44,417 nt of DNA from Deltaproteobacteria bacterium (GTDB taxonomy: Bacteria; Desulfobacterota; GWC2-55-46; UBA9637; GWC2-42-11): assembly GCA_016223005.1 (NCBI GenBank), contig JACRPW010000041.1:1-44417 (forward strand). The letters run 5' to 3'. The position numbers were made by a program, and so were the translations under genes. Each line of letters starts with the position of its first letter. The first letter of the stretch is position 1. Positions 4,735-35,631 of the stretch are shown here, in pieces. The notes beneath the pieces were generated by a model. That model was not told the DNA's origin. It was given only the letters and a program-made list of their open reading frames with translations, and did no database searches.

Positions 4735-5730
4735 CAAAGACCCTGAAGTCACAAGGGGATATTTATGATTACCATTTTTACAACCACTAAACCATTTATA
4801 GGTCAGATGAAAATCAACCAGATTAATGCGATTACGAGTTGGAAGATGCTGCATCCTGATATTGAGGTTTTAATATTTGGGAAAGGTGAAGGTAGAGAAG
4901 GTATAGAAGATGTGGTTAAGGAATTTTCTTTATTGCATATCCCTGATGTTGAAACAAGTGAAAGAGATATGCCCCTTATCAGTTCAATGTTTGATATAGC
5001 GAAAAGGAGAGGTCATTATAATATTCAAATGTTTATTAATTGTGACATTATTCTTGTGGACGATTTTTTACCAGCATTAAGAAGGATAACAATGGATAGA
5101 TTTCTCATGGTAGGTCAGCGATATAATTTGACACTTGACAGACCAGTCAATTTTAAATCTCCTTGCTGGATAGATGATTTAAGAAAAGAGTGTAAAGAAA
5201 AAGGAGAGATTATGGATGTATGTGGTATAGACTATTTTACATATCCAAAAGATATATGGAAAAATCTTCCGCCTATGGCTGTTGGGCGGCCTGTTTACGA
5301 TAATTGGCTGCTATATAACTGCCGTCGGTTAGGTATTCCATTAATTGATGTCTCCAATCATGTGCTGGCAGTGCACCAGAATCATGATTACAGTTATTAT
5401 CCTGGTGGCAAGCAGGGTATTTCTACTGGAGCGGAGGTGGAACAAAATCGCAGGTTAGCCGGTGGAAAGGATAACTATTTTACAATAAGAGATGCGGATT
5501 GGGTATTAACTGATGAAGGACTAAAAAGGAATTATTGCCGCGGCGATATCTTGAGGTATATGGATGTTTATGCGATTTTATATCCTGACAAATTTGGTTG
5601 GTTTAAAAAAATAACTTATCTGATGCGTATGCCGAGAGAGATAGCATCATACTTGTACGGGATAACATTTAAACCGCTGGTCAAAAGGATAAAGGATGGT
5701 AGAGAAAAGGCAGGTAGAGTTATACAATAA
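4696..5730 (+). repeat. Tandem segmental duplication, copy 1
   Basis: The first copy of a repeat that begins inside the 3' end of the DUF115-like gene, crosses the 30-base intergenic gap and covers the following gene. Copy 2 starts 1141 bases downstream at 5837. About the first 175 bases match with one visible mismatch, and 5093-5222 is identical to 6225-6354. Intervening stretches are diverged, so identity is a mosaic. A 9-base difference (three codons near residue 45 of the encoded protein) separates the copies. Confidence 0.9.
4765..5730 (+). CDS. GT-A-like putative glycosyltransferase, tandem copy 1
   Basis: A 321-residue protein starting MITIFTTTKPF, preceded by AAGGGG 7 bases before the ATG. 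The beginning (strand, then NAITSWKMLHPDIEVLIFG) and the NCDIILVDDFLPALR segment near residues 92-106 look like a nucleotide-diphospho-sugar GT-A fold, with NCDIIL in the place of a DxD metal site. Other landmarks are FLMVGQRYNL, VCGIDYFTYPKDIW, a YDNWLLYNCRRLGIPLIDV segment and HQNHDYSYYPGGKQG. I recognise this as a bacterial glycosyltransferase-like family of unknown acceptor, with no EC-level assignment possible. It has a close paralogue at 5906-6850 and sits between a putative nonulosonate transferase and methyltransferase/CgeB genes. Confidence 0.6.
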   Translation: MITIFTTTKPFIGQMKINQINAITSWKMLHPDIEVLIFGKGEGREGIEDVVKEFSLLHIPDVETSERDMPLISSMFDIAKRRGHYNIQMFINCDIILVDDFLPALRRITMDRFLMVGQRYNLTLDRPVNFKSPCWIDDLRKECKEKGEIMDVCGIDYFTYPKDIWKNLPPMAVGRPVYDNWLLYNCRRLGIPLIDVSNHVLAVHQNHDYSYYPGGKQGISTGAEVEQNRRLAGGKDNYFTIRDADWVLTDEGLKRNYCRGDILRYMDVYAILYPDKFGWFKKITYLMRMPREIASYLYGITFKPLVKRIKDGREKAGRVIQ

Positions 5731-5760
5731 CAGTCAAAAAAGATGGATAATTATGCTGAC

Positions 5761-5807
5761 AGGGCAACCCATTAGGGTTGCATAATGCAAGGCTAAGGCA
5801 TTGCCCT
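5761..5807. repeat. Nested palindromic element at the duplication junction
   Basis: Two inverted repeats lie between the duplicated genes. GCAACCC (5764-5770) pairs with GGGTTGC (5775-5781) across a 4-base ATTA loop. The outer arms AGGGCAA (5761-5767) and TTGCCCT (5801-5807) are also perfectly complementary, so two alternative stems can form. There is no run of T after it, so a simple rho-independent terminator is unlikely. It looks like a small REP/MITE-type unit, and it lies about 30 bases before the start of duplication copy 2. Confidence 0.6.
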
Positions 5808-5836
5808 ACATCTACTTATTTTCAACGTTCACTATA

Positions 5837-6850
5837 GATGTTTACCCTCGTGTAGATTATAAAACTCTGTTTTAACAAAGACCCTGAAGTTACAAGGGGA
5901 TATTTATGATTACCATTTTTACAACCACTAAACCATTTATAGGTCAGATGAAAATCAACCAGATTAATGCGATTACGAGTTGGAAGATGCTGCATCCTGA
6001 TATTGAGGTTATAATATTTGGGAAAGGCGAGGGTATAGAAGATGTGGTTAAGGAACTTTCTTTATTGCATATCCCTGATGTTGAAACAAGTGAAAGAGAT
6101 ATGCCCCTTATCAGTTCAATGTTTGATATAGCAAAGAAGGTTGGTAGATATAATATTCAGACACTTATTAATTGTGATATTATTTTATTAGATGATTTTC
6201 TGCCAGCGTTAAAAAATATACCTGTGGATAGATTTCTCATGGTAGGTCAGCGATATAATTTGACACTTGACAGACCAGTCAATTTTAAATCTCCTTGCTG
6301 GATAGATGATTTAAGAAAAGAGTGTAAAGAAAAAGGAGAGATTATGGATGTATGCGGAATAGATTATTTTGCATATCCAAAAGATATATGGAGAAATATC
6401 CCCCCCATGGTTGTTGGACGGCCAGGCTACGACAACTGGTTATTATATTATTGCCGTCAATCGTTTATCCCGTTAATTGATGCTTCCAAATGCGTGCTGG
6501 CAGTGCACCAGAATCATGATTACAGTTATTATCCCGGTGGCAAACAGGGTATTCGTTTGGGGGTAGAGGCAGAACAAAATCGCAGGTTAGCCGGTGGAAA
6601 AGACAATTTTCTTACAATTAGAGATGCCAATTTTATACTAACGACAAAAGGATTAGAGGCTAATTTCTGCCGTGGAGATATTGTAAGATACCTTGAAGTG
6701 CTTGCGATTCTGAGGCCTCAAAGTTTCGGATGGTTGAGGTATGTAGTATATAGTCTCCGCTTGCCGAGAGAGATTCTATCTTTTATTTATAGGATAACTC
6801 TTAAACCAATAATGTTAAATATTTCCAAGGATAAGAACAGGAAAACATAA
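5837..6850 (+). repeat. Tandem segmental duplication, copy 2
   Basis: The second copy of the duplicated block. It starts with a non-coding copy of the last 39 bases of the DUF115-like gene (5837-5875), then the intergenic region and the paralogous gene. The 1141-base offset holds up to the small deletion near codon 45, and is 1132 afterwards. Similarity fades toward the 3' end of the gene, where the C-terminal about 60 codons differ strongly between copies. Confidence 0.88.
5906..6850 (+). CDS. GT-A-like putative glycosyltransferase, tandem copy 2
   Basis: A 314-residue paralogue of the preceding gene, with the same start context and the same landmark segments (NCDIILLDDFLPALK, FLMVGQRYNL, HQNHDYSYYPGGKQG). 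It lacks three residues of copy 1 near position 45. Substitutions cluster around the central YDNWLLYYCRQSFIPLID part and the C-terminus, which may reflect a different acceptor. Long identical blocks between the copies alternate with diverged ones, consistent with gene conversion after duplication. Its stop overlaps the next start by one base (TAATG), so it is translationally coupled to the methyltransferase. Confidence 0.6.
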   Translation: MITIFTTTKPFIGQMKINQINAITSWKMLHPDIEVIIFGKGEGIEDVVKELSLLHIPDVETSERDMPLISSMFDIAKKVGRYNIQTLINCDIILLDDFLPALKNIPVDRFLMVGQRYNLTLDRPVNFKSPCWIDDLRKECKEKGEIMDVCGIDYFAYPKDIWRNIPPMVVGRPGYDNWLLYYCRQSFIPLIDASKCVLAVHQNHDYSYYPGGKQGIRLGVEAEQNRRLAGGKDNFLTIRDANFILTTKGLEANFCRGDIVRYLEVLAILRPQSFGWLRYVVYSLRLPREILSFIYRITLKPIMLNISKDKNRKT

Positions 6851-7569
6851 TGGGTGACAGAGAAGAATTATTTACAGGATATTTTGATTCAATTTTTGCC
6901 AGTTCTAATCTTTTAACTCCTTTGGGGTATGAAAATTACGCGAGAGAATTTGATTCGTACTACAGCAGGTTTTTACCAGAAAGAAAAGATAGTCTGATAC
7001 TTGATATTGGCTGTGGTACAGGACAATTTCTGTATTATCTTAAGAAAAAGGGGTTTGAAAATTATCAAGGGATTGATGTTTCATACAGCCAGATAGAATT
7101 TTGTAAAAACAATGTTACTCCAAATGTTGAAGTAGCCAATACCTTTGAATTTCTGGAAGATAAGATAAATACCTATGACATGATATCTGCCAATGATGTT
7201 ATTGAGCATATGCCTAAAGATACGATTATAAATTTTTTGGAGCTGATATATCAAGCATTGAAACCCGGTGGTATGCTGTTATTAAAGTTACCTAATATGA
7301 GCAATCCATTTGCCCTTAATGCAAGATACAGGGATTTTACCCATGAGTGCGGTTTTACAGAGAAAAGCATCTATCAGGTTCTGTATGTAGCAGGTTTTCG
7401 GAATATCAATATATATCCATCTTTAACACACGATAGGTCAATAAAGGGTCTTATAGGTAAGATATTGATTTCGATATTTCACCGGGTTTTAAGAAAACTT
7501 TTCTGGCATCAGGGATTTACAGCCCCTGAGATATTAAGCAGCTGTCTTGTTGTCATGGCAAAAAAATAA
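6850..7569 (+). CDS. Class I SAM-dependent methyltransferase
   Basis: A 239-residue methyltransferase with motif I LILDIGCGTGQFLYYL near residues 48-63, the acidic end of strand 2 (GIDVS) near 73-77, motif II NDVIEHMP near 115-122, and LKPGGMLLLKLPN near 138-150. This is the Methyltransf_11/23 arrangement seen in sugar O-methyltransferases of polysaccharide loci. It is coupled to the upstream glycosyltransferase-like gene by a one-base overlap and followed 7 bases later by a CgeB-like gene. A role in methylating a glycan residue, possibly as a chain modification, is inferred from context only. Confidence 0.85.
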   Translation: MGDREELFTGYFDSIFASSNLLTPLGYENYAREFDSYYSRFLPERKDSLILDIGCGTGQFLYYLKKKGFENYQGIDVSYSQIEFCKNNVTPNVEVANTFEFLEDKINTYDMISANDVIEHMPKDTIINFLELIYQALKPGGMLLLKLPNMSNPFALNARYRDFTHECGFTEKSIYQVLYVAGFRNINIYPSLTHDRSIKGLIGKILISIFHRVLRKLFWHQGFTAPEILSSCLVVMAKK

Positions 7570-15938: not shown

Positions 15939-17435
15939 ATGAAGATATTCATTATAGAAAAATCTAAATCAAGGGTCTTCTTATTTCTCATACTCTTATC
16001 TGTCTTTTTACCTAGTAATGAGACCGTGTTTGCATATCAGAATGTCCCTGCTGCAGTTAACCTTGAAAGTGAAGTTGGCGGCAGCGCACTTTCACCTGAA
16101 GAGGTTGTTCAAAGGGTCAGGAACGCAGGACTGAAGGTCGCAATATTTGCAGATAAAGATACAAATAAGGTTGAATACGGGTTGTTCCCTTTAAGAAATT
16201 TGATAAAAAAGGCAGAGGAAAGAGAGTCTATTACCCGCTATGGTGCGCAGCAGTATATAAATCGTATAGAAAATATTGCCAGCCAAAATCCTGACATGGT
16301 TATACTGCATGGAGCGGAGACAGTGCCATTTTATTATTGGGAGGGTTCTGTATTCTCTGGACTTACGATAAAAAATTTTCATAAAAATATCCTTGTCTTT
16401 GGGTTAGAAAAGGCTGAAGACTATGAGAACCTGCCTTCTGTCTCTCATAAAAAATCATTTGAATTTTCAATAAACTGCCTTATTAGTTTATGGCCAATAA
16501 TTGTTATTGTGCTTGGTTTTCTGGCATTCTCCTATAAAAAAAGGTGTAGTTACTCTTACTTAGTTACCTCTTCTGGAGCAGGAGGTGAAATAAAGTTCTA
16601 TAAACCGCCTAAACTTAAGTGGCTTGGTGTTCTTTTAATGGTGGGAGGCATTGTATTTTTAGTAAATAATTATCCATTTTGCAACCATAAGTTTGACCAA
16701 TAACATGGAGATAAAGGTGCTCTGCCCTATCAGAAATTGATTGATTATGTAAATGCAAAAGGGGGGCTTGCATTCTGGTCATCGCCTGATGTGGATTCTG
16801 CAACTTATAAATATGGCCCTGTAACATTTGATACCAGACCATACTATGATGACCTTTTGAATACTGCAGGATATACTGGTTTTGCCGTGTTTGCAGAAGG
16901 GATGAAGCATACAGGTATACCCGGAGGGATATGGGATAAGGTGTTACTAGAATATGTGAATGGTAAAAGAGAAAAACCTGTTTGGGCAATAGGGGAACTT
17001 GATTATGAAGAAGGGGACTGGATGGGTGAAACCCAGACTATAATGCTTGTTAATCAGATGACAAAAACTGATATTCTGGATGCCTTACGAAAAGGTCGGA
17101 TGTATGCAGTTATAGGCCCTTCAGAAAAACCAAAGCCTGTGCTTGAAATGTTTAATATATGGGACAGCGCCAATAATAAGTGGGTGGAAATGGGTGAAAG
17201 TGCTAGAGCAGATAAAGTTACCAAATTAAGAATAAGGCTCACAATACCAGCGGGACAGGATGAACTGCTTAAAATCATTAGAGAGGGTGAGGTAGTAAAG
17301 GAGTTTAATTTGAAGACTGGGGTATTTGATGAAACCATAGAGATTGCTAACCATAAATCAAGTGGTATGACATACTATAGAATTGACTTAAGTTCTCGCC
17401 TTATCTCAAATCCTATCTTTATTATCTTGACATAA
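15939..17435 (+). pseudogene. PHP-like membrane-anchored protein split by an in-frame TAA
   Basis: One continuous reading frame of 498 codons interrupted by a single TAA at 16701-16703. The first part (254 codons) has a signal sequence (FLFLILLSVFLPSNETVFA), a PHP-type segment ALSPEEVVQRVRNAGLKVAIF, HGAETVPFYY near 127-136, and two membrane segments around residues 183-202 and 227-244. After the stop, without a frame change, comes HGDKGALPYQKLIDYVNAKGG, then a second half with HTGIPGGIWDKVL and a beta-rich C-terminal domain. Intact relatives would be CehA/McbA-type metallophosphoesterases. The first metal site HxHS appears as NLES here, and KD replaces a usual HD, so catalytic ability is doubtful. 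It lies just upstream of the PilZ/export module. Confidence 0.75.
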
Positions 17436-17493
17436 AATACTAATTTGTAGTAATTAACTTATAAATTTTAACATTGAAAATCTTGGAGTAACT

Positions 17494-18039
17494 ATGGAAG
17501 TAGTGCATTTAAAAGACAGGCGGATACATACCAGAATCAGTAATGATGAAATTATAGTTTACTACAAAGTAGATGATGCGCAGCAAAAAGATAATGGAGA
17601 TGTAAGCAGGTTTTTGAAGGAGAAGGTATTTGGCGCAAAGATGTCAGAGATTTCCAAGATTTTAAGCGATAAAGGGGAGACATCTTATATTGAGATAATG
17701 GAATCTAAAATAGATAGACTGATTCGTCTGCTCACTGTGTTTGCCAACCCATCAATGGGGAAAGGGGATTTGACTGCTATTAACATTAGTGCATCGGGTG
17801 TTAGATTCCGTGCAAGACATCCTTTTTCTCAAGGGGATGAAATTGAGGCCCTTTTGGTAATTTTACCGCTATTTTATTTAATTGAATGCAGATGCAAGGT
17901 AGTATGGTCTATGAAGTACAGTAATGATTATGGGGACTACTATGAAGTTGCAACTAAATATTGCAATATAAATGAGAGCGATGAGAAGAATATTTTAAAT
18001 TATGTGAAGGTTTGTATTGAAAATAGTGTTTCACAATAA
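17494..18039 (+). CDS. PilZ-domain cyclic di-GMP receptor-like protein
   Basis: A 181-residue protein. RRIHTR near residues 9-14 gives an RxxxR motif, and NISASG at 97-102 gives the [D/N]xSxxG half of the PilZ ligand site, followed by RFRARHPFSQGDEIEALLVILP and CKVVWS, the typical barrel strands. About 80 charged, helix-prone residues separate the two motifs, which is unlike compact PilZ domains and resembles oligomerising variants. The family binds cyclic di-GMP. Position 18 bases before the ExeA-like ATPase and upstream of the exporter suggests that it makes polysaccharide output depend on the second messenger. Confidence 0.78.
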   Translation: MEVVHLKDRRIHTRISNDEIIVYYKVDDAQQKDNGDVSRFLKEKVFGAKMSEISKILSDKGETSYIEIMESKIDRLIRLLTVFANPSMGKGDLTAINISASGVRFRARHPFSQGDEIEALLVILPLFYLIECRCKVVWSMKYSNDYGDYYEVATKYCNINESDEKNILNYVKVCIENSVSQ

Positions 18040-18057: not shown

Positions 18058-18861
18058 ATGTACGAGGCATATTGGGGACTCAGGAATCTTCCGTTTCAGA
18101 TACTTCCTGATACAGGCTTATATTATCCAACAAAGATGCATGATGATGCTGTAAAGAGGGTTTTATATGCCATAAAGACTTTGAAGGGCTCGTTTCTTCT
18201 TACAGGCGATATAGGTGCTGGGAAGACAACTGTTGTAAACATGGTTATGGAAAAATTGTTTAAGGATAAAGATAAATATGAAGTGGCACTCATTAATCAC
18301 CCTACAATAGATTGCCTAAGTTTTATGAAAGAGGTATTGCTGCAATTTGGCATCAAAGGTGATATGTCAGAGAAGGCGGATATGATACATGCATTTCACG
18401 AATGGCTTGTTTCTACATATACCAGAGGCAGACATGCGGTACTGATTATAGATGAAGCCCATTTAATAAAGGATATGGATATATTGGAAGAACTCAGACT
18501 TTTTTCTGATTTTAGTATCAACAACCGTCCGCTTTTGACATTGATGCTAGTTGGACAATCAGAGATTAGAAAGACAATTCAGTATAATGGACCACTTGAG
18601 TCAAGGATTGCCATTAAATATCATCTAATGCCATTGAATATGGAAGACAAGGAATATATAAGACATAGGTTGGAGGCGGTTGGAGGAGAGCTCGGGATAT
18701 TTACAACTGATGCGGTTGTGGACATATATAAATTTTCCGGTGGACTGCCAAGGGAGATAAATAAGATATGCGATATGAGTCTTTTTGAGGCATGTTCCGT
18801 GCAGAAAAAATCTGTAGATACAGAGATTGTTAAGAAGGTAGGCAGTGAAGATTTTATATAA
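18058..18861 (+). CDS. ExeA/GspA-like AAA ATPase of polysaccharide loci
   Basis: A 267-residue P-loop ATPase. It opens MYEAYWGLRNLPFQILPD, the hallmark of the ExeA-type group. Walker A GDIGAGKTT starts at residue 50, Walker B HAVLIIDEAH has Asp132-Glu133, and sensor-like residues follow (LMLVGQSEIR). The C-terminal helical part IYKFSGGLPREINKICD completes the AAA module. Unlike secretion ExeA there is no C-terminal peptidoglycan-binding extension. Its neighbours match the ATPase found in exosortase-type EPS loci, but no exosortase is present in the window. GGGGGAGAC precedes the ATG. Possible job: energising or positioning the OmpA-bearing exporter. Confidence 0.85.
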   Translation: MYEAYWGLRNLPFQILPDTGLYYPTKMHDDAVKRVLYAIKTLKGSFLLTGDIGAGKTTVVNMVMEKLFKDKDKYEVALINHPTIDCLSFMKEVLLQFGIKGDMSEKADMIHAFHEWLVSTYTRGRHAVLIIDEAHLIKDMDILEELRLFSDFSINNRPLLTLMLVGQSEIRKTIQYNGPLESRIAIKYHLMPLNMEDKEYIRHRLEAVGGELGIFTTDAVVDIYKFSGGLPREINKICDMSLFEACSVQKKSVDTEIVKKVGSEDFI

Positions 18862-18866
18862 TCTTT

Positions 18867-20297
18867 ATGAGAGTGACTGATATAATAAAGAAATTATCTA
18901 CTGCATATGCTTTAGAAAAAATACCGCCACATACAGCAAATGATATACAGACTCCTGACGAAGATGTTGTGTCTAAAAAAACAGAAGAGAGCCAGATTCC
19001 TTCCAATAACGAAGTCGTCTCTATTGTAAGTGATGTAAACAAAGATACAAAATCCATTAAGGAAGATAATGCCATCCGTGATGATATTGTATTTGACGAC
19101 ATTACTTCTGAAGAATCTAATGATATACTGATTCCTTCCGATAACAAAACCAATCTAATTTTTGACAAAGATTCAAAACTGCTTAAAGAGGATAATGCCA
19201 GCCATGACGATATCGATATTGTATTTGATGACATTATATATAAGGAACTAAAGGATGTTCAGATTCCTTCCAATAAAACAGATAACATCAGTTTTTCCAA
19301 TGCATATTTAGTGAGAGAAGAAAACTCTCAAAAAAAAAATGGTTATGAGACCCTAAATGCTGTAAAGACATCTTTTTTGACTACAGAGTTTCCTTTTAAA
19401 CTGGCGGATATTAGTATAATGTATGAGGGGGAGAATTATTTTATAATGTGGAGAGAACTAAATAATTTCATGATTCAACTTACAGAGGGCAAGAAACCTG
19501 ACCCATCCGTGGTAATCAAAACTGCCAATGTAATTGTAAATCTGCTTGTTGATGATAATAATGAACTTATTAGAGCATTGTTTGTAGAAAAGAAGTCAGA
19601 GGATATTACATCACAACTAATAAATGTAGCCATAATTACAGCAAAGATTGGGACAAGATTGGGATATAGAGATTCTCAATTAAAAGACCTTGTAACATGT
19701 GCCTTACTGCATGATGTTGGAATGCTCAAGGTGCCTGAAAAGGTTAGAAGGAAAAGAGATAAATTAACTGAAGAAGAGTTTGAGGAAATCAAGAAACATC
19801 CTCAATATTCATACGATATGTTGAATGAACTGACTGGACTGCCTTCTATTGTTGCAGAGGTTGTATATCAGGAACAGGAGAGGGAAGATGGCTCAGGGTA
19901 TCCTCTGGGGTTAAGAGGGGACAGCATTCATGAATATGCCAAAATAATAGGATTGTCAGCAATATACGCTTCAATGATACAGCCGAGGCCTCAAAGGGGA
20001 AGAAAATTTCCATTTGATGTTATAAAAGAGATTATAGGAAAGTGCAAAGGACAATTTCCTGAATGCATAATAAAGGCGATTATTGATGAACTTTCTGTGT
20101 TTCCTATTGGTATCTATGTGACCCTTAATACAGGTGAGGTTGGAAGGGTTATAAAGACAAATAAACTTGCGCCCATGAGGCCTGTAATAGAAGTGGTCAG
20201 AGATTTTCACGGTAAAAAACTTAAGGAACCAAAGCGGTATGACCTTACAAAGGAACGTGTATTACAGGTAAAAGATACGCTTTATGAAGTCATATAA
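18867..20297 (+). CDS. Degenerate HD-GYP-like protein with N-terminal acidic repeats
   Basis: A 476-residue protein. The N-terminal about 150 residues are acidic, low-complexity and repetitive: IPSN/IPSD plus a KEDNA-x-x-DDIVFDDI unit appears two to three times. The C-terminal half is HD-GYP-like: LLHDVGMLKVP (His282-Asp283), KKHPQYSYDML, EREDGSGYPLGLRG near 338-351 and an IQPRPQR end of core. Canonical HD-GYP enzymes hydrolyse cyclic di-GMP, but here the expected HHE is QEQERED, and the upstream metal-ligating His is not evident. Hence it is probably a non-catalytic sensor or partner protein. The start is the ATG at 18867. The stop lies 19 bases before the exporter ATG. Confidence 0.8.
   Translation: MRVTDIIKKLSTAYALEKIPPHTANDIQTPDEDVVSKKTEESQIPSNNEVVSIVSDVNKDTKSIKEDNAIRDDIVFDDITSEESNDILIPSDNKTNLIFDKDSKLLKEDNASHDDIDIVFDDIIYKELKDVQIPSNKTDNISFSNAYLVREENSQKKNGYETLNAVKTSFLTTEFPFKLADISIMYEGENYFIMWRELNNFMIQLTEGKKPDPSVVIKTANVIVNLLVDDNNELIRALFVEKKSEDITSQLINVAIITAKIGTRLGYRDSQLKDLVTCALLHDVGMLKVPEKVRRKRDKLTEEEFEEIKKHPQYSYDMLNELTGLPSIVAEVVYQEQEREDGSGYPLGLRGDSIHEYAKIIGLSAIYASMIQPRPQRGRKFPFDVIKEIIGKCKGQFPECIIKAIIDELSVFPIGIYVTLNTGEVGRVIKTNKLAPMRPVIEVVRDFHGKKLKEPKRYDLTKERVLQVKDTLYEVI
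18990..19320 (+). repeat. Imperfect in-gene repeats encoding acidic IPSN/KEDNA units
   Basis: Inside the HD-GYP-like gene, translated units beginning near IPSNN, IPSDN and IPSNK recur about every 43-50 codons, two of them followed by KEDNA-xx-DDI-VFDDI. DNA spellings differ between copies (for example gatgatattgtatttgacg and gatatcgatattgtatttga), so the repetition is old. The predicted product is disordered and strongly acidic, a possible linker or docking tail. Confidence 0.7.
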
Positions 20298-20316: not shown

Positions 20317-23190
20317 ATGTTTGCAATATTCAATATTACAACAGCTGTTTTTATAAGCATCCTTTTTCTGACTGGATGTAGCGGACCTCAGCCATTATCC
20401 ATGGTTGGACATGGGGTGGAGCAGATAAAATCAGAAACTGTGTGGTCAAGGGATTTTGGTCCAGAACGGTCAGGGCATTTTAGGGCATTGGCAATAGCTG
20501 ATTTTAATAACGATGGTAAACTTGATATTGTTGGAGGAAGTTATGAACCTGGTGCAATATTCCTCTGGTATGGCGATGGGCTTGGTTATTGGGAAAGGAT
20601 TCAAAGGTTTAAAATAAAGGCTGATGTCCGTTACTTAACAGTTGGTGATGTAAACAATGACGGTTGGCTAGATATTGTATCATCCAGCCGCGGCGATACA
20701 AAGGGGATAGGGGTATGGATAAACGAAAACGGTGTTTTCAGAGAAGGGCAGAGGATTAGTGAAAAAGAATTGTATGAGGGTATGAAACTGGTTGATATCA
20801 ATAATGATGGGAAATTGGATGTTATATCTGCAAACAGTTCAGATGTAAGTATTGGAGGTATTCAGGTATGGCTGGGTGTGGGTGATGGAACTTTTATTAC
20901 AGAAACTGGACCAACCCGTAAGGGTATATATTTTGATGTTGCTGTTGGTGACATCAATAATGATGGAAAACTTGATATAGTGGGAGCCGGATGGGGGCAG
21001 GCTGATGGTGCAATAAGGACATGGCTGGGAAATGGAGATGGAACATGGTCCTCTGCACAGATGGTAGATAAAGGCTCATTCTGGGGTATTGATACTGCAG
21101 ATGTGAATAATGACGGCAATCTTGATATTGTAGGTGCCTCTAATTTTGAAGGTGTGACAATATATTACGGTGATGGGAAAGGTGGTTTCCCTACAAAAGA
21201 AAAGTTGGCAGAAACAGGCAGTTTCTGGAGGGCAAGGGTAGTGGATTTGAACAAGGATGGTCTCATGGATATAATTGCCTCATCAAATGATGGACATGGA
21301 TTGGTTGTGTGGTATCAACATAGGATAGATAAAAAATATATGGAGAAAAAAGATAGCAGTGGCTGCAATTGCACCATAGAATGGATAGCAAAGAATGAAG
21401 GTCTGCCTGTTGAAGGATTTTATTTTGACATAGCAATTGCAGACTTTAACCTTGATGGCAGGGCAGACCTTGCTGCATCCACCCATGGCGAGGGTATAAA
21501 GGTCTGGTTTAGATCACCTGGGGAACCTGCAAAGATTAAGAAAGAGATAGTTAAGGAAAAGGAGATTATTGAAAAACCTGTTGAAAAGATAGTTGAAAGG
21601 GAAAAGATTGTTGAGAAACTTACTGTGCCTGTATTTTATACCGCTGTTTTCTTTGATACAGGAAAGGCGGAGATAAGGCCTGAATCTAAAGTTATATTGA
21701 GTAGTGTTGCGGAGTTCTTGAAAAGGGTCACAGGGACGATTGTAAAACTGGAGGGATATGCTGACCCAAGGAGAATAATGAGTAAGGAATTTCCGGATAA
21801 TCAGGTTCTTTCAGAGGTACGGGTAAAGAAGGTGAATGAGTACCTGATAAATGCTGGCATTCCCATAGATAGAATGGAAGTCAGGGGTTTTGGAGACAGC
21901 AACATTAAGTATAAAGGCGATGACCCGAATTCTATGCAGATGAATAGAAGGGTGGATATTACAATAATTTACAAGAGTGCCTTAATGGAAAAGGAAGGGA
22001 TGAAAAATGACCTTCCCGATAAAGAAAAAAAAGGCATGGATAATAAAGAAATAGATAAAAAGGAAATATCGCCTTACAAGAAGGTGTCAACTGAGGGATT
22101 AGAAATCAGCGCGCCCAAAACAAAAGAACTGGTGTCTAAAGACCCGTTTGCAGAGACAAAGGATGTTATACCTGTTACAGAATACAAGGTATTTAAAATG
22201 ATTAAGAATGTCCCTGAGTATAGGATTGGAATAGGTGATACTTTAGAGATTACCTTGTGGGAGGGGATAAAGGAAACTCATTATAGAGTTATTGTCTCAC
22301 CACAAGGAACCATATCATTTTCATATGTAATAGGTTTCAATACAGTAGGATTTACGCAGACAGAGTTGGAAGGGGAATTTATAAAACTTTTGCAGGAATA
22401 TGTTAAGAAACCTATTATAAAGGTAGAAGTTCCTGAGAAAGTGGCACATACTCTTTCTATATTTGGTGCAGTAAGAGACCTCCCCAGACAACCAACAGGG
22501 CCGGGGACATATACTATGTATGGCAGAGAAAGGATAACACAGTTTTTATCAAGGGCAGGTGGGCATTTGCCAATTGCTGACCTCACCCGTGTCCAATTGA
22601 CAAGGGGGGGAAAGACATATTTTCTAAATTTATTTGATGTCCTGTTTAAGGCGGATTATAGACAGGATGTATTTGTAGATGATGGAGATGTAATCTTTAT
22701 TCCTGCTAAGACAGAGATTAAGAATAAGGTTTTTGTCTTTGGTGAGGTGAAAGCTCCAGGGTTATTTCAATACGATGTAGGTATTTCACTTTTTGAGTCT
22801 ATTATTCGGGCAGGCGGTCCCACATTTTATGGTAAGATAGAAGATGTTGTTATAATCAGAGGCGATGAGACCAAGCCAGAAGCCATTAAGTCAAACCTTA
22901 AAGATATTTATGAGAGAGGAGATTTTAGACAGAACATTGCACTTCAGAATAATGATATAGTCTATGTGTCTAAAAATACGGTGGGGAATATTGCTAATTT
23001 TATAAGAAATATAACACCTATATTGGGAATATTACGCTTTCCTATGGATTTGTATGGAGCTACTGCAGTTCCTAGAATAGACGGATTTCCTCTAATAAGA
23101 GAGGCAGCGCCTACACCTACCACTGTAATAACAACTACACCTACAGCCCCTCCACTTGGTGAAGGTGAGAGATGGGGCGAAAGTAGGTAA
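20317..23190 (+). CDS. Lipoprotein fusion: FG-GAP/VCBS propeller, OmpA domain, Wza-type exporter
   Basis: A 957-residue outer-membrane lipoprotein. The ATG at 20317 is chosen over 20284 because AGAGGGGG lies 8 bases upstream and the protein then starts MFAIFNITTAVFISILFL with lipobox LTGC (Cys21). Residues about 50-390 carry seven Ca-binding-like DxNxDGxxD repeats, a predicted seven-blade propeller. A charged linker rich in KEIVEK follows (about 405-435), then an OmpA-type peptidoglycan-binding domain at about 440-550 (FFDTGKAEIRPES, LEGYADPR, MNRRVDITI). Poly_export starts near 635 (YRIGIGDTLEITLWEG), followed by two SLBB-type domains near 710-890. This equals Wza plus wall anchoring plus an exposed or periplasmic propeller. 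It is followed 15 bases later by the Wzc-like gene. Confidence 0.88.
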   Translation: MFAIFNITTAVFISILFLTGCSGPQPLSMVGHGVEQIKSETVWSRDFGPERSGHFRALAIADFNNDGKLDIVGGSYEPGAIFLWYGDGLGYWERIQRFKIKADVRYLTVGDVNNDGWLDIVSSSRGDTKGIGVWINENGVFREGQRISEKELYEGMKLVDINNDGKLDVISANSSDVSIGGIQVWLGVGDGTFITETGPTRKGIYFDVAVGDINNDGKLDIVGAGWGQADGAIRTWLGNGDGTWSSAQMVDKGSFWGIDTADVNNDGNLDIVGASNFEGVTIYYGDGKGGFPTKEKLAETGSFWRARVVDLNKDGLMDIIASSNDGHGLVVWYQHRIDKKYMEKKDSSGCNCTIEWIAKNEGLPVEGFYFDIAIADFNLDGRADLAASTHGEGIKVWFRSPGEPAKIKKEIVKEKEIIEKPVEKIVEREKIVEKLTVPVFYTAVFFDTGKAEIRPESKVILSSVAEFLKRVTGTIVKLEGYADPRRIMSKEFPDNQVLSEVRVKKVNEYLINAGIPIDRMEVRGFGDSNIKYKGDDPNSMQMNRRVDITIIYKSALMEKEGMKNDLPDKEKKGMDNKEIDKKEISPYKKVSTEGLEISAPKTKELVSKDPFAETKDVIPVTEYKVFKMIKNVPEYRIGIGDTLEITLWEGIKETHYRVIVSPQGTISFSYVIGFNTVGFTQTELEGEFIKLLQEYVKKPIIKVEVPEKVAHTLSIFGAVRDLPRQPTGPGTYTMYGRERITQFLSRAGGHLPIADLTRVQLTRGGKTYFLNLFDVLFKADYRQDVFVDDGDVIFIPAKTEIKNKVFVFGEVKAPGLFQYDVGISLFESIIRAGGPTFYGKIEDVVIIRGDETKPEAIKSNLKDIYERGDFRQNIALQNNDIVYVSKNTVGNIANFIRNITPILGILRFPMDLYGATAVPRIDGFPLIREAAPTPTTVITTTPTAPPLGEGERWGESR

Positions 23191-23205: not shown

Positions 23206-25299
23206 ATGGCAGAATATACCATTAAAGATGCAGTAGATATATTTAAGAGAAGAAAAAGGACCGTGCTAATAACGAGTGTAGTATTTATTCTGCTCTCAGT
23301 TAGTATTGTCGTATATTCTATGCCAGAATCCATTTATGAGGCGGAAACTGCAATAAAGATTGAAAAGGTTACAACACTTGGGGAATTACTTTTAGGCAGG
23401 GTTACGGTGGGTGACTATATGGCAACAGCAGAGGCAATGATAAAGGGTTATGATATTCTTTACTCTGTGGCAAAGAAGGTGGGGTTGGTTCCCTTGGATG
23501 TAAAAAAAGAAAAGGCATTAGCCACACCAAAATATATTGGAATTATAAAAGAGATGGAAGAAAGGATAACTGTTGAGAAAGGAAGAGGGAATATCCTATT
23601 GATTAAGGTGCGGCATACAAACAGGCTTATGGCAAAAAATATTGCTAACACTGTCGCTGAAACCTATAAAGAAATGGTATTCTATGAAAGAAACAAAAAT
23701 ATATTGGAACTGGAGAATCTTGTAGGAGTAAAATTGTCTGAGTCTGAATTAAAATTACAAAAGTCCAGAGAGGCTCTAAAATTATTTAGAGAAAAACTGG
23801 AATTTATAACTGTTTTGGATGAACAGAAGTTTATTATTGATGCCTATGCTGTAAAACAAAAGAAACTGGAGGAATTAAGGATAATTCATGTTTTTTTGCA
23901 GGAAAAAGTAAAGGCACTAAGTAGCGGAAAGCATTTAGAAGAAGAGGTAAGTAAGCTGGCTTTTATACCAGGTGGTTTGGGGGAATCTATTGCTACGTTA
24001 AATTCCAGATTAAATGGTTTTAAATTAAGAGAAAATGAACTACTGCTTTATTATACTGAGGGGCATCCGGAGATAGCATATATAAGGGAACAGAAGAATG
24101 CAGTGATAAAACAGATGATGCAGGATATTAGTATGCGTGAGAAACAGATAGCGGATGAAATCAAACTACTGGAAAATGATACTAATGCCCTCCAAATAAG
24201 AATGAAAATTATACCAGATGTCGCATTAAAATATAGTGTATTAGAAAAGGATGTTGCGGTAAACGAGGAACTATACAATAAGATAGTTGCATTGCATCAG
24301 GATGCAGCTGTAAAGAAGACAGAGGTGTCCGAGGAGGTTACAGTAGCCAAGTATGCAGTAGAACCATCTATCCCTGTTAATCGTGTGACATTTATAGGTA
24401 ATATTATTATAAGTTCGTTCCTTGCGATAGTTTTTGGATTTGTCGGCGGCTTTATCCATGAGGCATTTGACACAATTCCTCATCAGACAGCAAGTCTTGC
24501 AGAACTCTTAGGCATTCCAATACTCTCTGTCATTTCTGATTGGCATACATCTAATATATTTAATCTTGTTGGCACAAGATACCCTGACACCTCTGAACAG
24601 GATATAATGAGATACATGTCGTTGCCTGCACATTTTATATCTGATTCAGCAATCTCTGAACAGTACAAGACAGTAGTTCCAAATATCTTAATGATTTCAA
24701 AGGAAAAGGATATAAAGGTGGTTGCTATTCTTCATGGTATTCAGGGGGAGGGGGCAACTGCATATGCTGCAAATCTTGCTATTTCAATCAGTCAGACCGG
24801 CAGTTCTGTGGTGCTGATTGATGCCAATTTTAAAAGTCCAGGTGTCCATAAATTGTTTGGTATAAAAAGGCAGCCTGGATTTACAGATGTCCTCATGGGT
24901 AATTACGAGTGGGATACAGCAGTAATGCGGATAACAGATCTGATGTTGGGTGAAATAAAACCTCAGCATCTTTTATCTCCTCTTGGACTTGACAATCTTT
25001 ATATACTTACAAATGGGGAAAGAATAGAAAATCCATCTACCTTTATAAATTCTGAAAGGATGGATAAGACAATAGAGGCATTAAAAAACTTTTTTGACTT
25101 TGTTATCATAGACACATCACCCATCTTAACCGATTCCGAAGCATCTATGCTTATCAGCAAGGTAGATGCTGCAATAGTATTAACGGAATTTGAAAGGCTG
25201 TCAAGAAGGGCATTATTGAAAATGAGGTCTCAACTTGAAAATATGAGGGTAAAATTAATAGGATTGGTAGTTAATAAAACTAAAAAGATAGAGTTATAA
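23206..25299 (+). CDS. Wzc/GumC-like chain-length co-polymerase with degenerate BY-kinase domain
   Basis: A 697-residue polysaccharide co-polymerase. Wzz domain: transmembrane segment near 18-38 (VLITSVVFILLSVSIVVY), long periplasmic coiled coil around 150-380, second membrane segment near 395-415. The C-terminal half is a BY-kinase/ParA-like fold: Walker A position GIQGEGATA at 511-519, A' VVLIDANFKSPG near 538, Walker B FDFVIIDTSPIL near 630. The invariant Walker A lysine is replaced by Ala517 and the tyrosine-rich C-terminal cluster is missing (end KTKKIEL). The partner exporter is the upstream fusion lipoprotein. It should set chain length and link to the outer-membrane pore, probably without autokinase control. 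Confidence 0.88.
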   Translation: MAEYTIKDAVDIFKRRKRTVLITSVVFILLSVSIVVYSMPESIYEAETAIKIEKVTTLGELLLGRVTVGDYMATAEAMIKGYDILYSVAKKVGLVPLDVKKEKALATPKYIGIIKEMEERITVEKGRGNILLIKVRHTNRLMAKNIANTVAETYKEMVFYERNKNILELENLVGVKLSESELKLQKSREALKLFREKLEFITVLDEQKFIIDAYAVKQKKLEELRIIHVFLQEKVKALSSGKHLEEEVSKLAFIPGGLGESIATLNSRLNGFKLRENELLLYYTEGHPEIAYIREQKNAVIKQMMQDISMREKQIADEIKLLENDTNALQIRMKIIPDVALKYSVLEKDVAVNEELYNKIVALHQDAAVKKTEVSEEVTVAKYAVEPSIPVNRVTFIGNIIISSFLAIVFGFVGGFIHEAFDTIPHQTASLAELLGIPILSVISDWHTSNIFNLVGTRYPDTSEQDIMRYMSLPAHFISDSAISEQYKTVVPNILMISKEKDIKVVAILHGIQGEGATAYAANLAISISQTGSSVVLIDANFKSPGVHKLFGIKRQPGFTDVLMGNYEWDTAVMRITDLMLGEIKPQHLLSPLGLDNLYILTNGERIENPSTFINSERMDKTIEALKNFFDFVIIDTSPILTDSEASMLISKVDAAIVLTEFERLSRRALLKMRSQLENMRVKLIGLVVNKTKKIEL

Positions 25300-25318: not shown

Positions 25319-26689
25319 ATGGAAGTATCGGTATTCAGTTACGCAGGTATTGTTGTAGGCATCTTCATTTTGGTAATTACAATTGCCTATCCTATTTTTG
25401 CAATCTATCTGCTTCCTGTTGCATTTTCTCTTTCACCCGAGATAGTTGTTGGAGCAACTGCTGCAAGAGAAATAACTGTAAGAATAGAAGATTTTCTGAT
25501 AGCAGTATTGCTGATAAGGATTCTCTTTGAATTTGTTCTGATGGGGCAGTTCCCGCCGCCTAAACTCCGTTACAATGCAGTAATAATCCTGTCCATGTTT
25601 TTATATTCCATGAGTCTGGTTCTTTCAACATCTGCAGGTGTCGCAATTCTGGCGGTCTCACCAACTGGAGGTTTCTTTTTTGTTCTTAAGTTAATTCAAT
25701 TCTTTTTATTTTATTTCGTCTTCTTTTATTACATCCGCAGCCAAAGAGATATAAACATAGTTCTGGCAGTATCACTAATTACTTTGTCAATTATGACAAT
25801 ATATGGGACTTTGCAGATTCCTTTAGGAGAAAGAATATCTATGCCGTTTGAAGGTAGTAAAGCAGGAGAGGCTGAGCCAAACACATTTGGCGGATATCTT
25901 GTGCTCTTAGGTTCTATTGTTGCAGGACTCTATAGCCATGAAACAAAAAGAATAAAAAGGGTGGTATATATCTTGTTAATAGCATCTGCTATTGTTCCTC
26001 TTGTTTATACGCAGTCAAGGACATCGTGGGCATCAGCATGGGTTGCCTTAATGGTATTTCTTATTATAACTAAAGGGTTACAGCGTAAGGTTGTTATATT
26101 CTCATTGATGCTCCTTGTTGTTATGTCCCTTCCACTTATGCCTGGAAAGATTAAACAGAGGGCAGAATTCTGGAAATCTGAAGAGGGGTTTAGATCTACA
26201 GAAACCGTAGGTGGAACTACGTTTGACCCTTCTACATCAGAGCGAATAGGAAAATATAGACAAATACCGCGATATTTTTCTAGAAATCCTGTTCTTGGTG
26301 TTGGAGTTACAGGTGCAGGATTTATTGATGGGCAGTATGTCCGTGTCATAATTGAGACAGGCTTATTAGGGGTATTTACCTTTTCCTACTTTCTTTATGT
26401 AATCTTAAGGTATATGTATTCAGTTTATAAGAGTACTGCTATTCCTTTTAGTAAAGGATTTTCTCTGGGTCTGTTTTGTGGAACTATAGGTATGCTTGTT
26501 CATGGTCTTGGTGCAACTACCTTTTTTATTGTTAGAATTGTTGAACCATACATGATGTTTCTAGCCATTCTGGTCAGCCATGGGTATATTACATCCGTGA
26601 GTAAAAAGGCAGAAATGCCTATACCCTCGCAATATGTCTACCCATATTTAATATGGCATCCTGCTACAGAAAGCAGAGTAGATACATAA
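25319..26689 (+). CDS. O-antigen polymerase/ligase-like membrane protein (Wzy/WaaL family)
   Basis: A 456-residue multi-pass membrane protein with about ten hydrophobic segments. The family-typical region between the later helices has VYTQSRTSWASAWVALMVFL, PLMPGKIKQRAEFW and, after a periplasmic loop, the conserved RIGKYRQIPRYFSRNPVLGVGVTGAGF. This pattern is of the PF04932 O-antigen ligase/polymerase group. Since the Wzc-like gene ends 19 bases before it, Wzy-type polymerisation is likelier than LPS ligation, but the sequence alone cannot decide. The stop and the next start are adjacent (TAA-ATG), implying coupling. Confidence 0.82.
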   Translation: MEVSVFSYAGIVVGIFILVITIAYPIFAIYLLPVAFSLSPEIVVGATAAREITVRIEDFLIAVLLIRILFEFVLMGQFPPPKLRYNAVIILSMFLYSMSLVLSTSAGVAILAVSPTGGFFFVLKLIQFFLFYFVFFYYIRSQRDINIVLAVSLITLSIMTIYGTLQIPLGERISMPFEGSKAGEAEPNTFGGYLVLLGSIVAGLYSHETKRIKRVVYILLIASAIVPLVYTQSRTSWASAWVALMVFLIITKGLQRKVVIFSLMLLVVMSLPLMPGKIKQRAEFWKSEEGFRSTETVGGTTFDPSTSERIGKYRQIPRYFSRNPVLGVGVTGAGFIDGQYVRVIIETGLLGVFTFSYFLYVILRYMYSVYKSTAIPFSKGFSLGLFCGTIGMLVHGLGATTFFIVRIVEPYMMFLAILVSHGYITSVSKKAEMPIPSQYVYPYLIWHPATESRVDT

Positions 26690-27391
26690 ATGAGGATTGC
26701 CATCCATCAGCCCCAGTTTATGCCCTGGCTTGGATATCTTGACAAGATGGACAAGGTTGATGTCTTTGTCCTGCTTGACAATGTCCAGTTTAAAAAAAAC
26801 GAGTTTCAGAATAGAAATAAGATAAGGACTGCAGATGGTTGGATGTGGTTGACAGTCCCAGTTAGATTTAGTTTTGGTGATAAAATCATAGATGTCAAGA
26901 TTGATAATAAGCATGATTGGCAGAAAAAACATTTATATACCCTTCAAACAAATTATGGAAGAGCCGATTTTTTCAAAGAATATTATCCGCAATTTGAGAG
27001 ATTATATAAAAGAGAATTTGACATGTTGTCCCCATTGAATTATGAGACCATAATGCTTATAAAAAAATTCTTTTCTATAAAGTCAGAGATAGTAATGGCA
27101 AGTTCTATTCCAGATTTAAGTAATGATCCAACCCAGAGATTAATAGATATTTGCAGATATTTTAATGCAGATACTTATTTGGCTGGTGCAGGCGGTAAAG
27201 GATATATGGAATGTAGTAGATTTATAGATGCTGGTATTAAACTAAGTTTTCAGCATTTCGCTCATCCTGAATATGAGCAGATTTATGGAAAATTTGAACC
27301 TTATATGTCGTCAATTGACTTTATCTTTAACTTAGGGAATAATTTTGATATGGTGAGAGTATTGAATAGAGATATAGAAGAATATAAATGA
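26690..27391 (+). CDS. WbqC-like family protein
   Basis: A 233-residue protein opening MRIAIHQPQFMPWLGYLDKM, the signature of the WbqC family (PF08889), and continuing with DNVQFKKNEFQNRNKIR and WLTVPV near the N-terminal third, GAGGKGYM near 165-172 and HPEYEQIYG. Function in the family is uncertain. Members are found in O-antigen and nonulosonate clusters beside DegT aminotransferases and may process amino sugars. The start follows the polymerase stop with zero spacing, and the stop overlaps the next ATG by four bases (ATGA), so three genes are coupled. Confidence 0.85.
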   Translation: MRIAIHQPQFMPWLGYLDKMDKVDVFVLLDNVQFKKNEFQNRNKIRTADGWMWLTVPVRFSFGDKIIDVKIDNKHDWQKKHLYTLQTNYGRADFFKEYYPQFERLYKREFDMLSPLNYETIMLIKKFFSIKSEIVMASSIPDLSNDPTQRLIDICRYFNADTYLAGAGGKGYMECSRFIDAGIKLSFQHFAHPEYEQIYGKFEPYMSSIDFIFNLGNNFDMVRVLNRDIEEYK

Positions 27392-28440
27392 TACCGCATT
27401 CAAAACCCACCATTGAAAAAGAAGAATTATCCGCAGTTTCAGATGTTCTTTCTTTAGGTCAAATTTCTCAGGGTCTACAAGTTAAAGAGTTTGAAAGACA
27501 CTTTGAGGAGTTTTTTGGTCTTAAAAAAGCCGTAGCAGTCAATTCAGGAACTTCAGCCTTGCATTTAGCGCTTATTGCTGTTGGTGTAAAAACAGGGGAT
27601 GAGGTTGTGATTCCAAGTTTTGTATGCACTGCCCTACTAAATGCGGTTAATTATATTGGTGCTGTGCCTGTGATTGCAGATATTAATGAAGAGGACTTTA
27701 ACTTAAGTCCTGGGGATACAAAAAAAAGGATTACAAAAAAGACAAAGGCGATTATTATCCCCCACATGTTTGGGACCCCATGCAATGAAATTCATGGGTT
27801 TAAAGATATAGGTATACCTATTATAGAAGACTGTGCCCAATCAATTGGTGCAAAGATTAGCGGGCATTATGTTGGCACAATGGGTGATGTCAGCACCTTC
27901 TCGTTTTATGCTACAAAGATTATGACAACGGGTGAGGGCGGCATGGTGGCAAGCAATTAATTGGAACTGATGGAAAGGATTTATGACTTGCGGGATTATG
28001 ATAACAAAGATGATTACATGGTAAGATATAATTATAAGATGACAGACATTCAGGCAGCAATGGGTATTGAGCAACTTAAGAAACTACAGGATTTTATATA
28101 TAGAAGAAGAGTCATAGCCGAAAGATATAATGAAGGGTTTAAAGATTTGCCCGTAAGACTGCCTGTTATAGCATCTAATATAGAATGTATCTGGTTTAGG
28201 TATGTCCTCTGTTCTGAAAGGGCAGATAGTCTGATAAAATATCTGCATGAAAATGGGATTAGTGCAGTTAAACCTATTTTTAAGCCGCTTCATATATTAT
28301 TAGGTAACAAAGGAGACTGTCCAATTTCTGAGAAGGTATGGAATAATACTGTATCTCTGCCTATATATCCATTATTGTCATTGGCTGAAGTTGATGAGGT
28401 AATTAAATACATGAAACTTTTTTATATTCAGAGGAGATGA
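27388..28440 (+). pseudogene. DegT/DnrJ/EryC1 aminotransferase split by an in-frame TAA
   Basis: A 350-codon PLP aminotransferase frame cut by one TAA at 27958-27960 with no frameshift. Before it: PKP motif substitute, NSGTSALHLAL phosphate turn, IEDCAQSIG (pyridine-binding Asp), FSFYATKIMTTGEGGMVASN with Schiff-base Lys177. After it: LELMERIYDLRDYDNKDDY, the conserved RYNYKMTDIQAAMGIEQL, and the small domain to residue 350. The truncated 190-residue product would lack the C-terminal domain and part of the active site. Internal reinitiation at 27970 (ATG) cannot restore a single chain. Either a nonsense mutation or a sequence error. Confidence 0.85.
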
Positions 28441-34559: not shown

Positions 34560-35631
34560 TTATATGATATTTTGGTTTTTTCTGCATAGTATAGAAATAT
34601 ATAGAGACTCAAATCTATTTACCATTTCTCTGAATGAATATCCTTTTACCCTATTGTATCCGTTTGTGCCTAATATTTTCCTCTTTTCTTTGTTAGTTAT
34701 AAGATACCTGATATGCTCAGTCATCCCATCAACATCTTCGCTGTTAACCAGATACCCTGTTACACCATGCTCCACAATCTCTGCTACCCCGCCTACATTT
34801 GTGGCAATAACAGGCTTTCCTGCAGCCATTGCCTCCAGAATTACCATGCCTTGCCCTTCGTTTAAAGAGGTCAGAACAAATATATCAATATCTTTTAAAA
34901 TATGGACTACATCATTTCTATAACCTAAAAGCAGTAAAGACTTTTCAAGTCCGAAGTCTGCTATCTTTTTTTTTATATCATTAAAAAGACTACCATCACC
35001 TATCATGACCGCTGTGGTATTGTCAACGGTTTTGAACAGTTTTTTGCATACTGAAAGGAATATATCAGGTCCTTTAACATGCTCAAACCTGCCGATCCAT
35101 CCGATAATAGTTGTGTCTTCCTCAATACCCAATTCGCTCCTTAAGACCCCATTTTTTGCCTTTGAAAATATAGATAGGTCCAGACCATTTGGAACAGGGA
35201 GAATCTTCCCCTTTTTTGCTATCTTAAGACTTAAAAATTCCTCTTTCTCTTTTTCACTGAGGGTGGTAACAGCAATAAACAATACATTTTGCCCCTGCAA
35301 GTTTTGCTGCAATCCTTCCGATAAAACCTGCCTTTGATGTATGGGTGTGGACTATGAAAGGTTTTTCTTTTAATAAATATCGGGTTATATACAAAAGTGC
35401 CTTAATGTCATTAAAAGGACTAATATCACGGCGAAGATAAGGAAGTGTTTTTATTTCTATGCCTGTCCTTTTAATAAACCCTTCAATATCAGTAACAGGG
35501 TCTTTTGTAAAACCGCTCAGAATACCGACATCATAACCCCTTTTTTTCATCTCCTCTGATAACTTGAGAACTATATCTGATGAACCGCCTTTATCCAGCC
35601 TTGTGATTATATGTATAATCTTTTTGCCCAA
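34560..35631 (-). pseudogene. GT4 glycosyltransferase broken by a deletion with frameshift
   Basis: Read on the - strand, 35631-35254 encodes a GT4 N-terminal domain (MGKKIIHIITRLDKGGSSD, VHTHTSKAGFIGRIAAKLAG). Close to GAKCIVY the frame shifts and resumes in another frame at FIAVTTLSEKEKEEFL, continuing with IIGWIGRFEHVKGPD, MIGDGSL, LTSLNEGQGMVILEAMAAGKPVIA and GYLVNSED to 34560. In intact relatives about 30-35 residues (a TPHG-type stretch and a linker helix) lie between these points, so roughly 100 bases are missing and the two halves are out of frame. No full-length transferase can be made. Confidence 0.8.

Follow-up and report, generated by a model that had tools for sequence, protein, structure and literature searches.

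The stretch of DNA analysed here, referred to as the window (44,417 nucleotides), carries a long lipoprotein gene placed between genes for PilZ, ExeA-type and HD-GYP proteins on one side and genes for a Wzc-type co-polymerase and a Wzy_C-type membrane protein on the other (Table 1). Beyond the Wzy_C protein follow WbqC, DegT and sugar-nucleotide enzymes and, farther in the window, NeuB, glycosyltransferases and methyltransferases; none of the window genes could be recognised as a Wzx flippase. At the syntenic locus the order is HD-GYP, ExeA-type ATPase, fusion gene, Wzc and Wzy. These genes make up an exopolysaccharide locus of the Wzx/Wzy type that includes genes linked to c-di-GMP.

Two genes of the cluster contain an in-frame TAA, located at 16701-16703 in a CehA/McbA-like gene (15939-17435) and at 27958-27960 in a DegT/DnrJ aminotransferase gene (27388-28440). 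Their homologues in L045, the corresponding locus of genome G004, are intact (5488-7005, a single frame, and 16940-17992, respectively), and decay, a mixture of strains or sequence error could each account for two nonsense codons in one cluster. On the minus strand, the overlapping adjacent frames 34560-35312 and 35254-35631 look like one glycosyltransferase gene split by a frameshift.

Table 1. Position of the fusion gene, its parts and its neighbours in the window, with the evidence for each feature.
Feature	Position	Strand	Evidence
PilZ protein, RxxxR and NxSxxG	17494..18039	+	Pfam PilZ, E 2e-9; motifs by reading; 40% homologue in L045
ExeA-type ATPase (TIGR03015-like)	18058..18861	+	NCBIfam, E 5e-61, under model cut-off; also in L045
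HD-GYP protein	18867..20297	+	Pfam HD_5; constant neighbour of the fusion family
FG-GAP-OmpA-OPX lipoprotein, 957 aa	20317..23190	+	Open reading frame, Shine-Dalgarno, orthologues
Signal peptide and lipobox FLTGC; Cys21, candidate lipidated residue	20317..20379	+	Sequence; Cys in 22/22 rows
Seven-bladed FG-GAP/VCBS propeller, residues 41-400	20437..21516	+	Pfam FG-GAP_3; motif count; AlphaFold2; Foldseek
Charged K/E/V linker (KEIVKEKEIIEKPVEKIVEREKIVEK)	21520..21627	+	Sequence; 78% identical in G004
OmpA-like domain, residues 445-544	21649..21948	+	Pfam OmpA, E 8e-13; phmmer; 79% identical in G004
Flexible linker OmpA-OPX, residues 553-625	21973..22191	+	38% identity to G004; pLDDT mostly <50
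Poly_export (PES, Wza D1), residues 632-705	22210..22431	+	Pfam PF02563; AlphaFold2; Foldseek to Wza
Two SLBB domains, residues 706-884	22432..22968	+	Pfam SLBB and SLBB_2, two stretches; phmmer to Wza 2j58
C-terminal amphipathic helix, residues ~885-911	22969..23049	+	phmmer, aligned with Wza D4 helix; hydrophobic moment; AlphaFold2
Wzc-type polysaccharide co-polymerase with tyrosine autokinase domain	23206..25299	+	NCBIfam eps_fam above cut-off
Wzy_C polymerase/ligase-type membrane protein	25319..26689	+	Pfam Wzy_C, E 6e-11; conserved after Wzc

The mechanical open reading frame of the fusion gene begins at 20284, ahead of the ATG at 20317, which stands behind aagagggggtatccct with a strong Shine-Dalgarno just upstream; from this ATG the 957 codons run to 23190 uninterrupted by stops. 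The domains and their order are those read from the letters in the preliminary description, and the Pfam search bears them out: FG-GAP_3 (E 3e-40), OmpA (8e-13), Poly_export (3e-12), SLBB (2e-10) and SLBB_2 (1e-18). The lipoprotein signal recognised at that time also holds, with the lipobox FLTGC ending at Cys21, a residue kept in all rows of a 22-row alignment of fusion proteins.

A frame of this composition, in a draft genome of 102 contigs and with TAA codons interrupting two neighbouring genes, could be suspected of being chimeric through assembly, or of having been fused recently by accident and being without function. Such an origin is extremely improbable, taking into account that full-length orthologues exist in independent genomes, that all domains are under purifying selection and that the gene order is conserved. 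The chimera, which the preliminary description had named as one of the outcomes that would overturn it, is ruled out by the presence of the same domain order in G004 (L045), G576 (L070) and G771 (L075).

By the criteria that define the OPX family, the window protein is a member. Poly_export (PF02563) scores 46.9 bits (cut-off 28), SLBB follows it in two stretches, and Wzc, the Wzy_C protein and many glycosyltransferases are encoded alongside. The part comprising PES and SLBB matches Wza (2j58) with an E-value of 3e-15 in phmmer, and Wza is also the first Foldseek match for this part of the full-length AlphaFold2 model, where pLDDT is ~68-95 (>90 over most of PES, ~68-88 in SLBB). Wza, the class 1 OPX protein of the Escherichia coli group 1 capsule (2j58, 9r60), is likewise a lipoprotein with PES, two SLBB domains and a Wzc partner, and aligns over most of the periplasmic part of the window protein, in some chains into the D4 helix. 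The two proteins differ in the segment between lipid and PES, short in Wza and of ~600 residues in the window protein (propeller, OmpA-like domain and linkers). The earlier remark that standard exporters of this type lack these extras agrees with the text of a survey of >91,000 OPX proteins (Saidi et al. 2022, PMC9603273). Its classes 1-3 have in common with the window protein a lipoprotein with Poly_export and then SLBB repeats, and are told apart chiefly by what the C-terminus contains (Wza_C, GfcC or neither); they are set without FG-GAP or OmpA, neither of which appears in that text. No description of an OPX protein fused with OmpA, FG-GAP, VCBS or a propeller was found in the searchable literature, outside which most subscription journals lie.

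The C-terminal end bears on how such a protein would reach across the outer membrane. Wza_C (PF18412), characteristic of Wza, was not matched by Pfam in any of the proteins tested, even with the threshold relaxed to E 10, and a self-made helical pore is for this reason unproven. It is possible, although in our judgement somewhat short of likely, that the protein is instead a periplasmic OPX, similar to those of class 3, requiring a separate beta-barrel in the outer membrane, and that its extra domains position it and are not part of a self-sufficient pore. Class 3 is the commonest OPX class and the C-terminal helix of Wza has 35 residues (PMC9603273), a length to which only ~16 residues correspond in the AlphaFold2 model (892-907). 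This short helix is nevertheless amphipathic, with a hydrophobic moment of 0.41-0.63 in two orthologues (protein-wide 95th percentile, 0.43); its NxxPxL pattern recurs in unfused relatives, and phmmer alignments to 26gs and 9r60 extend to residue 911, that is, into the outer-membrane D4 helix of Wza. The presence of two SLBB domains, the same as in Wza, also speaks against a class 3-like protein, as does the fact that no beta-barrel was recognised beside the fusion gene in the window cluster, although a few proteins of that cluster are without a family match.

Among the NCBIfam models, the best for the OPX part is the XrtA/PEP-CTERM export protein TIGR03027 (E 6e-32), and the adjacent ATPase and co-polymerase resemble TIGR03015 and TIGR03007/TIGR03018, respectively, which are proteins of the same type of locus. 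However, all these likenesses lie under the curated cut-offs (110.6 bits against 180 in the case of TIGR03027), the window protein carries extra domains, and no exosortase (TIGR02602) was matched in the window genome, listed as 100% complete. A PEP-CTERM identity has been rejected on the grounds of these scores and of the missing exosortase match.

The N-terminal part of the protein has the features of FG-GAP/VCBS propellers, that is, seven blades, DxDxDG-type (putative calcium) loops and matches to known propellers. The seven DxNxDGxxD repeats counted previously are exactly seven (residues 62, 111, 160, 212, 262, 310 and 376), as many as in an orthologue, while the shuffled N-terminal part contains a mean of 0.0075 matches. 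The propeller and the OmpA-like domain are poorly predicted in the full-length AlphaFold2 model (mean pLDDT 56); the propeller folds well only when modelled alone with an alignment of homologues, giving 28 strands, seven times four, with a pLDDT of 84 and a pTM of 0.87. Integrin alpha, CRTAC1, the PVL lectin and AUDH likewise have seven blades, each with its DxDxDG-type loop, but, unlike them, the propeller of the window protein is the N-terminal module of a polysaccharide exporter.

What this propeller binds may be approached through its closest folds. The model of the propeller alone has as its best solved neighbour CRTAC1 (9etn), an FG-GAP/VCBS protein, followed at high rank by AUDH (4a7k), integrin alphaV and WD40 proteins; a viral fold search returned generic propeller matches only. 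Many FG-GAP propellers bind proteins, and the nearest folds, among them CRTAC1, integrin alphaV, BBSome and KICSTOR, include well-known protein-binding propellers. It is quite possible, if not yet probable, that the propeller does not itself contact the glycan and is a scaffold recruiting a periplasmic partner, for example an enzyme that modifies the glycan or the arms of Wzc. The fixed order of the fusion gene with Wzc, HD-GYP and ExeA fits such a scaffold, but no partner family was found in this analysis.

It has also been considered that the propeller may hold or sense the exported glycan, as the preliminary description proposed. In its most explicit form, which we regard as rather unlikely, the propellers of the ring would act as a lectin-like receptor or gate, binding the exported polymer in the periplasm and either steering it towards the channel or retaining it while the chain grows to a sufficient length. 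The full-length model gave fold matches to the carbohydrate-binding propellers PVL (2bwm) and PLL2, yet in the better model of the propeller alone PLL2 ranks only 37th, behind CRTAC1, WD40 proteins, AUDH and integrin. Conserved aromatics (e.g., GSFW, GxYY) precede the first strand in several blades and sit in the DA' loop that forms the sugar pocket of the PVL lectins, themselves VCBS propellers (PMC8023676); the position of the propeller beside the SLBB domains would also suit a glycan-binding role. In contrast, the residues with which the propeller lectin AAL2 binds GlcNAc (Asn104, Trp112 and His117; PMC4483166) have, when compared by eye, no clear counterpart by spacing in the fusion propeller, whose connecting segments are shorter than those of AAL2 and do not reproduce the spacing of Asn104 and Trp112.

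Between propeller and PES lies the OmpA-like domain, closest to those of OmpA, MotS and PomB. In phmmer alignments against the PDB its GxxD and LSxxR line up with those of OmpA, MotS, PomB and Pal, and it has in common with the peptidoglycan-binding domains of MotS, PomB, Pal and YiaD the sequence domain, GxxD and NxxLSxxR. Unlike in these proteins, the domain rides on an OPX protein, and only four such proteins have been found. D483 and R502, conserved in G004 and aligned with the PDB members, are candidate peptidoglycan-contact residues by analogy with Acinetobacter baumannii OmpA. The domain probably ties the exporter ring to peptidoglycan, as far as can be judged from these motifs.

Within the class of the window genome, in which 63 genomes were examined, the full fusion occurs only in the window genome and in G004, members of two families of one order (one further contig record, identical to G004 at the fusion locus, was not counted separately). 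The G004 orthologue (L045, 9956-12757) is 65% identical by local blast and 69% by global alignment. A restriction to these two genomes was overturned once other classes of the phylum were searched. One further full-length case appeared in the class of G210, in genome G576 (L070, 6465-9332; 63% identity to the window fusion), and a more distant one in G771 (L075, 937-3528; 40%). For comparison, a penicillin-binding protein encoded in the window shares 65% identity with its counterpart in G004 and 56% with that in G013, which belong to the same class, so that a 63% match of the fusion in another class suggests that the locus either was transferred horizontally or was mis-binned into G576, whose contamination is 4%. 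The fusion locus of G576 (contig C26) has HD-GYP, Wzc, Wzy and WbqC as neighbours, the same as the window.

The preliminary description, in regarding the joining of propeller and exporter as unusual, judged its rarity too narrowly. In the class of G128, FG-GAP and OPX are found in one frame of ~730 aa without OmpA in many genomes (15 of the 147 genomes of a second sample with better scoring). All 22 aligned fusions contain FG-GAP, Poly_export and SLBB, while OmpA is present in four (window, G004, G576 and G771) and is a secondary, rare addition. No FG-GAP-OPX fusion showed in 8 genomes of the class of G131, only unfused OPX proteins stood above threshold among the matches listed for 85 genomes of the class of G090, and a search of plasmids returned no place covering 80% of the query, with FG-GAP proteins among the best matches. 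The larger family did not show in the evenly drawn searches of the phylum, in which 2-3 candidates were scored per genome.

Other arrangements of OPX genes were observed in these searches. In G002 (L007, 1489-3702), one frame of 738 aa encodes both a nucleotidyltransferase (PF14907) and an OPX protein, with a signal-like stretch mid-way; in G013 (L006) these are two genes with an overlap of a few bases, and the single frame of G002 possibly reflects the loss of a stop codon. Two fused proteins (L089, 3015-5501, and L090, 215-2677) have ~60 extra residues ahead of the signal peptide-like stretch. The fused frame of L086 (7880-9886), in the single-contig genome G786, has 669 aa and lacks the second SLBB domain, which may be due to a frameshift, and Wzc was not found in its 18-kb stretch.

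The surroundings of the fusion gene are conserved across the family. At the 21 fused loci other than the window and G004, Wzc adjoins in 20, HD-GYP lies nearby in 19 (the two loci without it have <1 kb of upstream sequence each) and the ExeA-type ATPase in 14. It had been asked at the outset whether ExeA, PilZ and a Wzc homologue always accompany the gene; with the window and G004 included this is almost so for Wzc (22 of 23 loci), in part for ExeA (16 of 23) and not for PilZ, seen only in those two genomes, HD-GYP being a more constant neighbour than either ExeA or PilZ. The order OPX-Wzc-Wzy is common to loci with unfused OPX proteins across the phylum (G002, G013, G131, G128, G427 and G210), which indicates that the fused protein fills the standard OPX slot. 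The FG-GAP-OPX proteins form a family that keeps its gene neighbours, has no description in the searchable literature and is more widespread than could be told from the window.

With respect to their origin, the fused propellers form one clade against the other FG-GAP proteins of the phylum (support 100/100), inside which the OmpA-bearing propellers are again one clade (99/97); propeller identity is ~40% across the two sub-types and ~27% to FG-GAP proteins outside the family. FG-GAP and OmpA fragments misaligned when added to the OPX alignment and were left out. An unrooted tree of the OPX part also keeps the members of each sub-type together (96/94 and 96/93), but places two unfused OPX proteins beside the OmpA clade with moderate support (87/78). 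For this reason the single fusion event favoured by the propeller tree falls short of proof. The simplest history would be one gain of the propeller and a later gain of OmpA, with losses or transfers. Taking into account that the unfused relatives mostly have a lipobox followed by a short linker, it is in that linker that the propeller sits. Between the window and G004, dN/dS is ~0.1 in most domains and ~0.25 in PES, with synonymous sites near saturation; to judge from these ratios, the fusion protein is selectively maintained, with purifying selection in all domains.

On the whole, we consider it probable that the fusion is the OPX lipoprotein of a Wzx/Wzy-type exporter, with periplasmic propellers around its ring and, in one clade, an OmpA-like domain tying the ring to peptidoglycan. 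The lipid, we infer, would be placed in the outer membrane, and the protein would be partnered with the adjacent Wzc co-polymerase and the Wzy-type protein, export being probably under c-di-GMP control through HD-GYP and PilZ. The OPX part, with PES and two SLBB domains, is expected to form a ring that would be the way out of the periplasm for the polymer. The closed seven-bladed propeller would have been inserted once, early, between the lipidated cysteine and the OPX part, and its location is presumably periplasmic, since a peptidoglycan-type domain comes after it without a membrane segment between them. Several propellers would surround each ring, most likely touching the glycan or a partner protein near the channel; the channel of Wza-Wzc crosses the envelope with C8 symmetry (PMC12881504), and the number of propellers to be expected on each channel is accordingly eight. 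In one clade, the OmpA-like domain would have been added later between propeller and OPX part, probably fixing the ring to peptidoglycan.

A bolder view, which we consider unlikely as a whole, is that of an undescribed exporter branch in which each ring subunit has a periplasmic propeller that binds the outgoing polymer and, in one clade, a domain fixing the channel to peptidoglycan. Export would then be coupled mechanically to the wall and run under the control of c-di-GMP signalling.

OPX proteins have been sorted by what follows SLBB, and this family shows that the stretch from lipid anchor to ring can also take up large functional modules. The covalently attached propeller offers a handle on how the exported polymer or partner proteins engage around the OPX ring, and the OmpA variant a direct route to testing the position of an export channel relative to peptidoglycan. 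With >20 members and conserved neighbours, the family is big enough for experiments and structural work.
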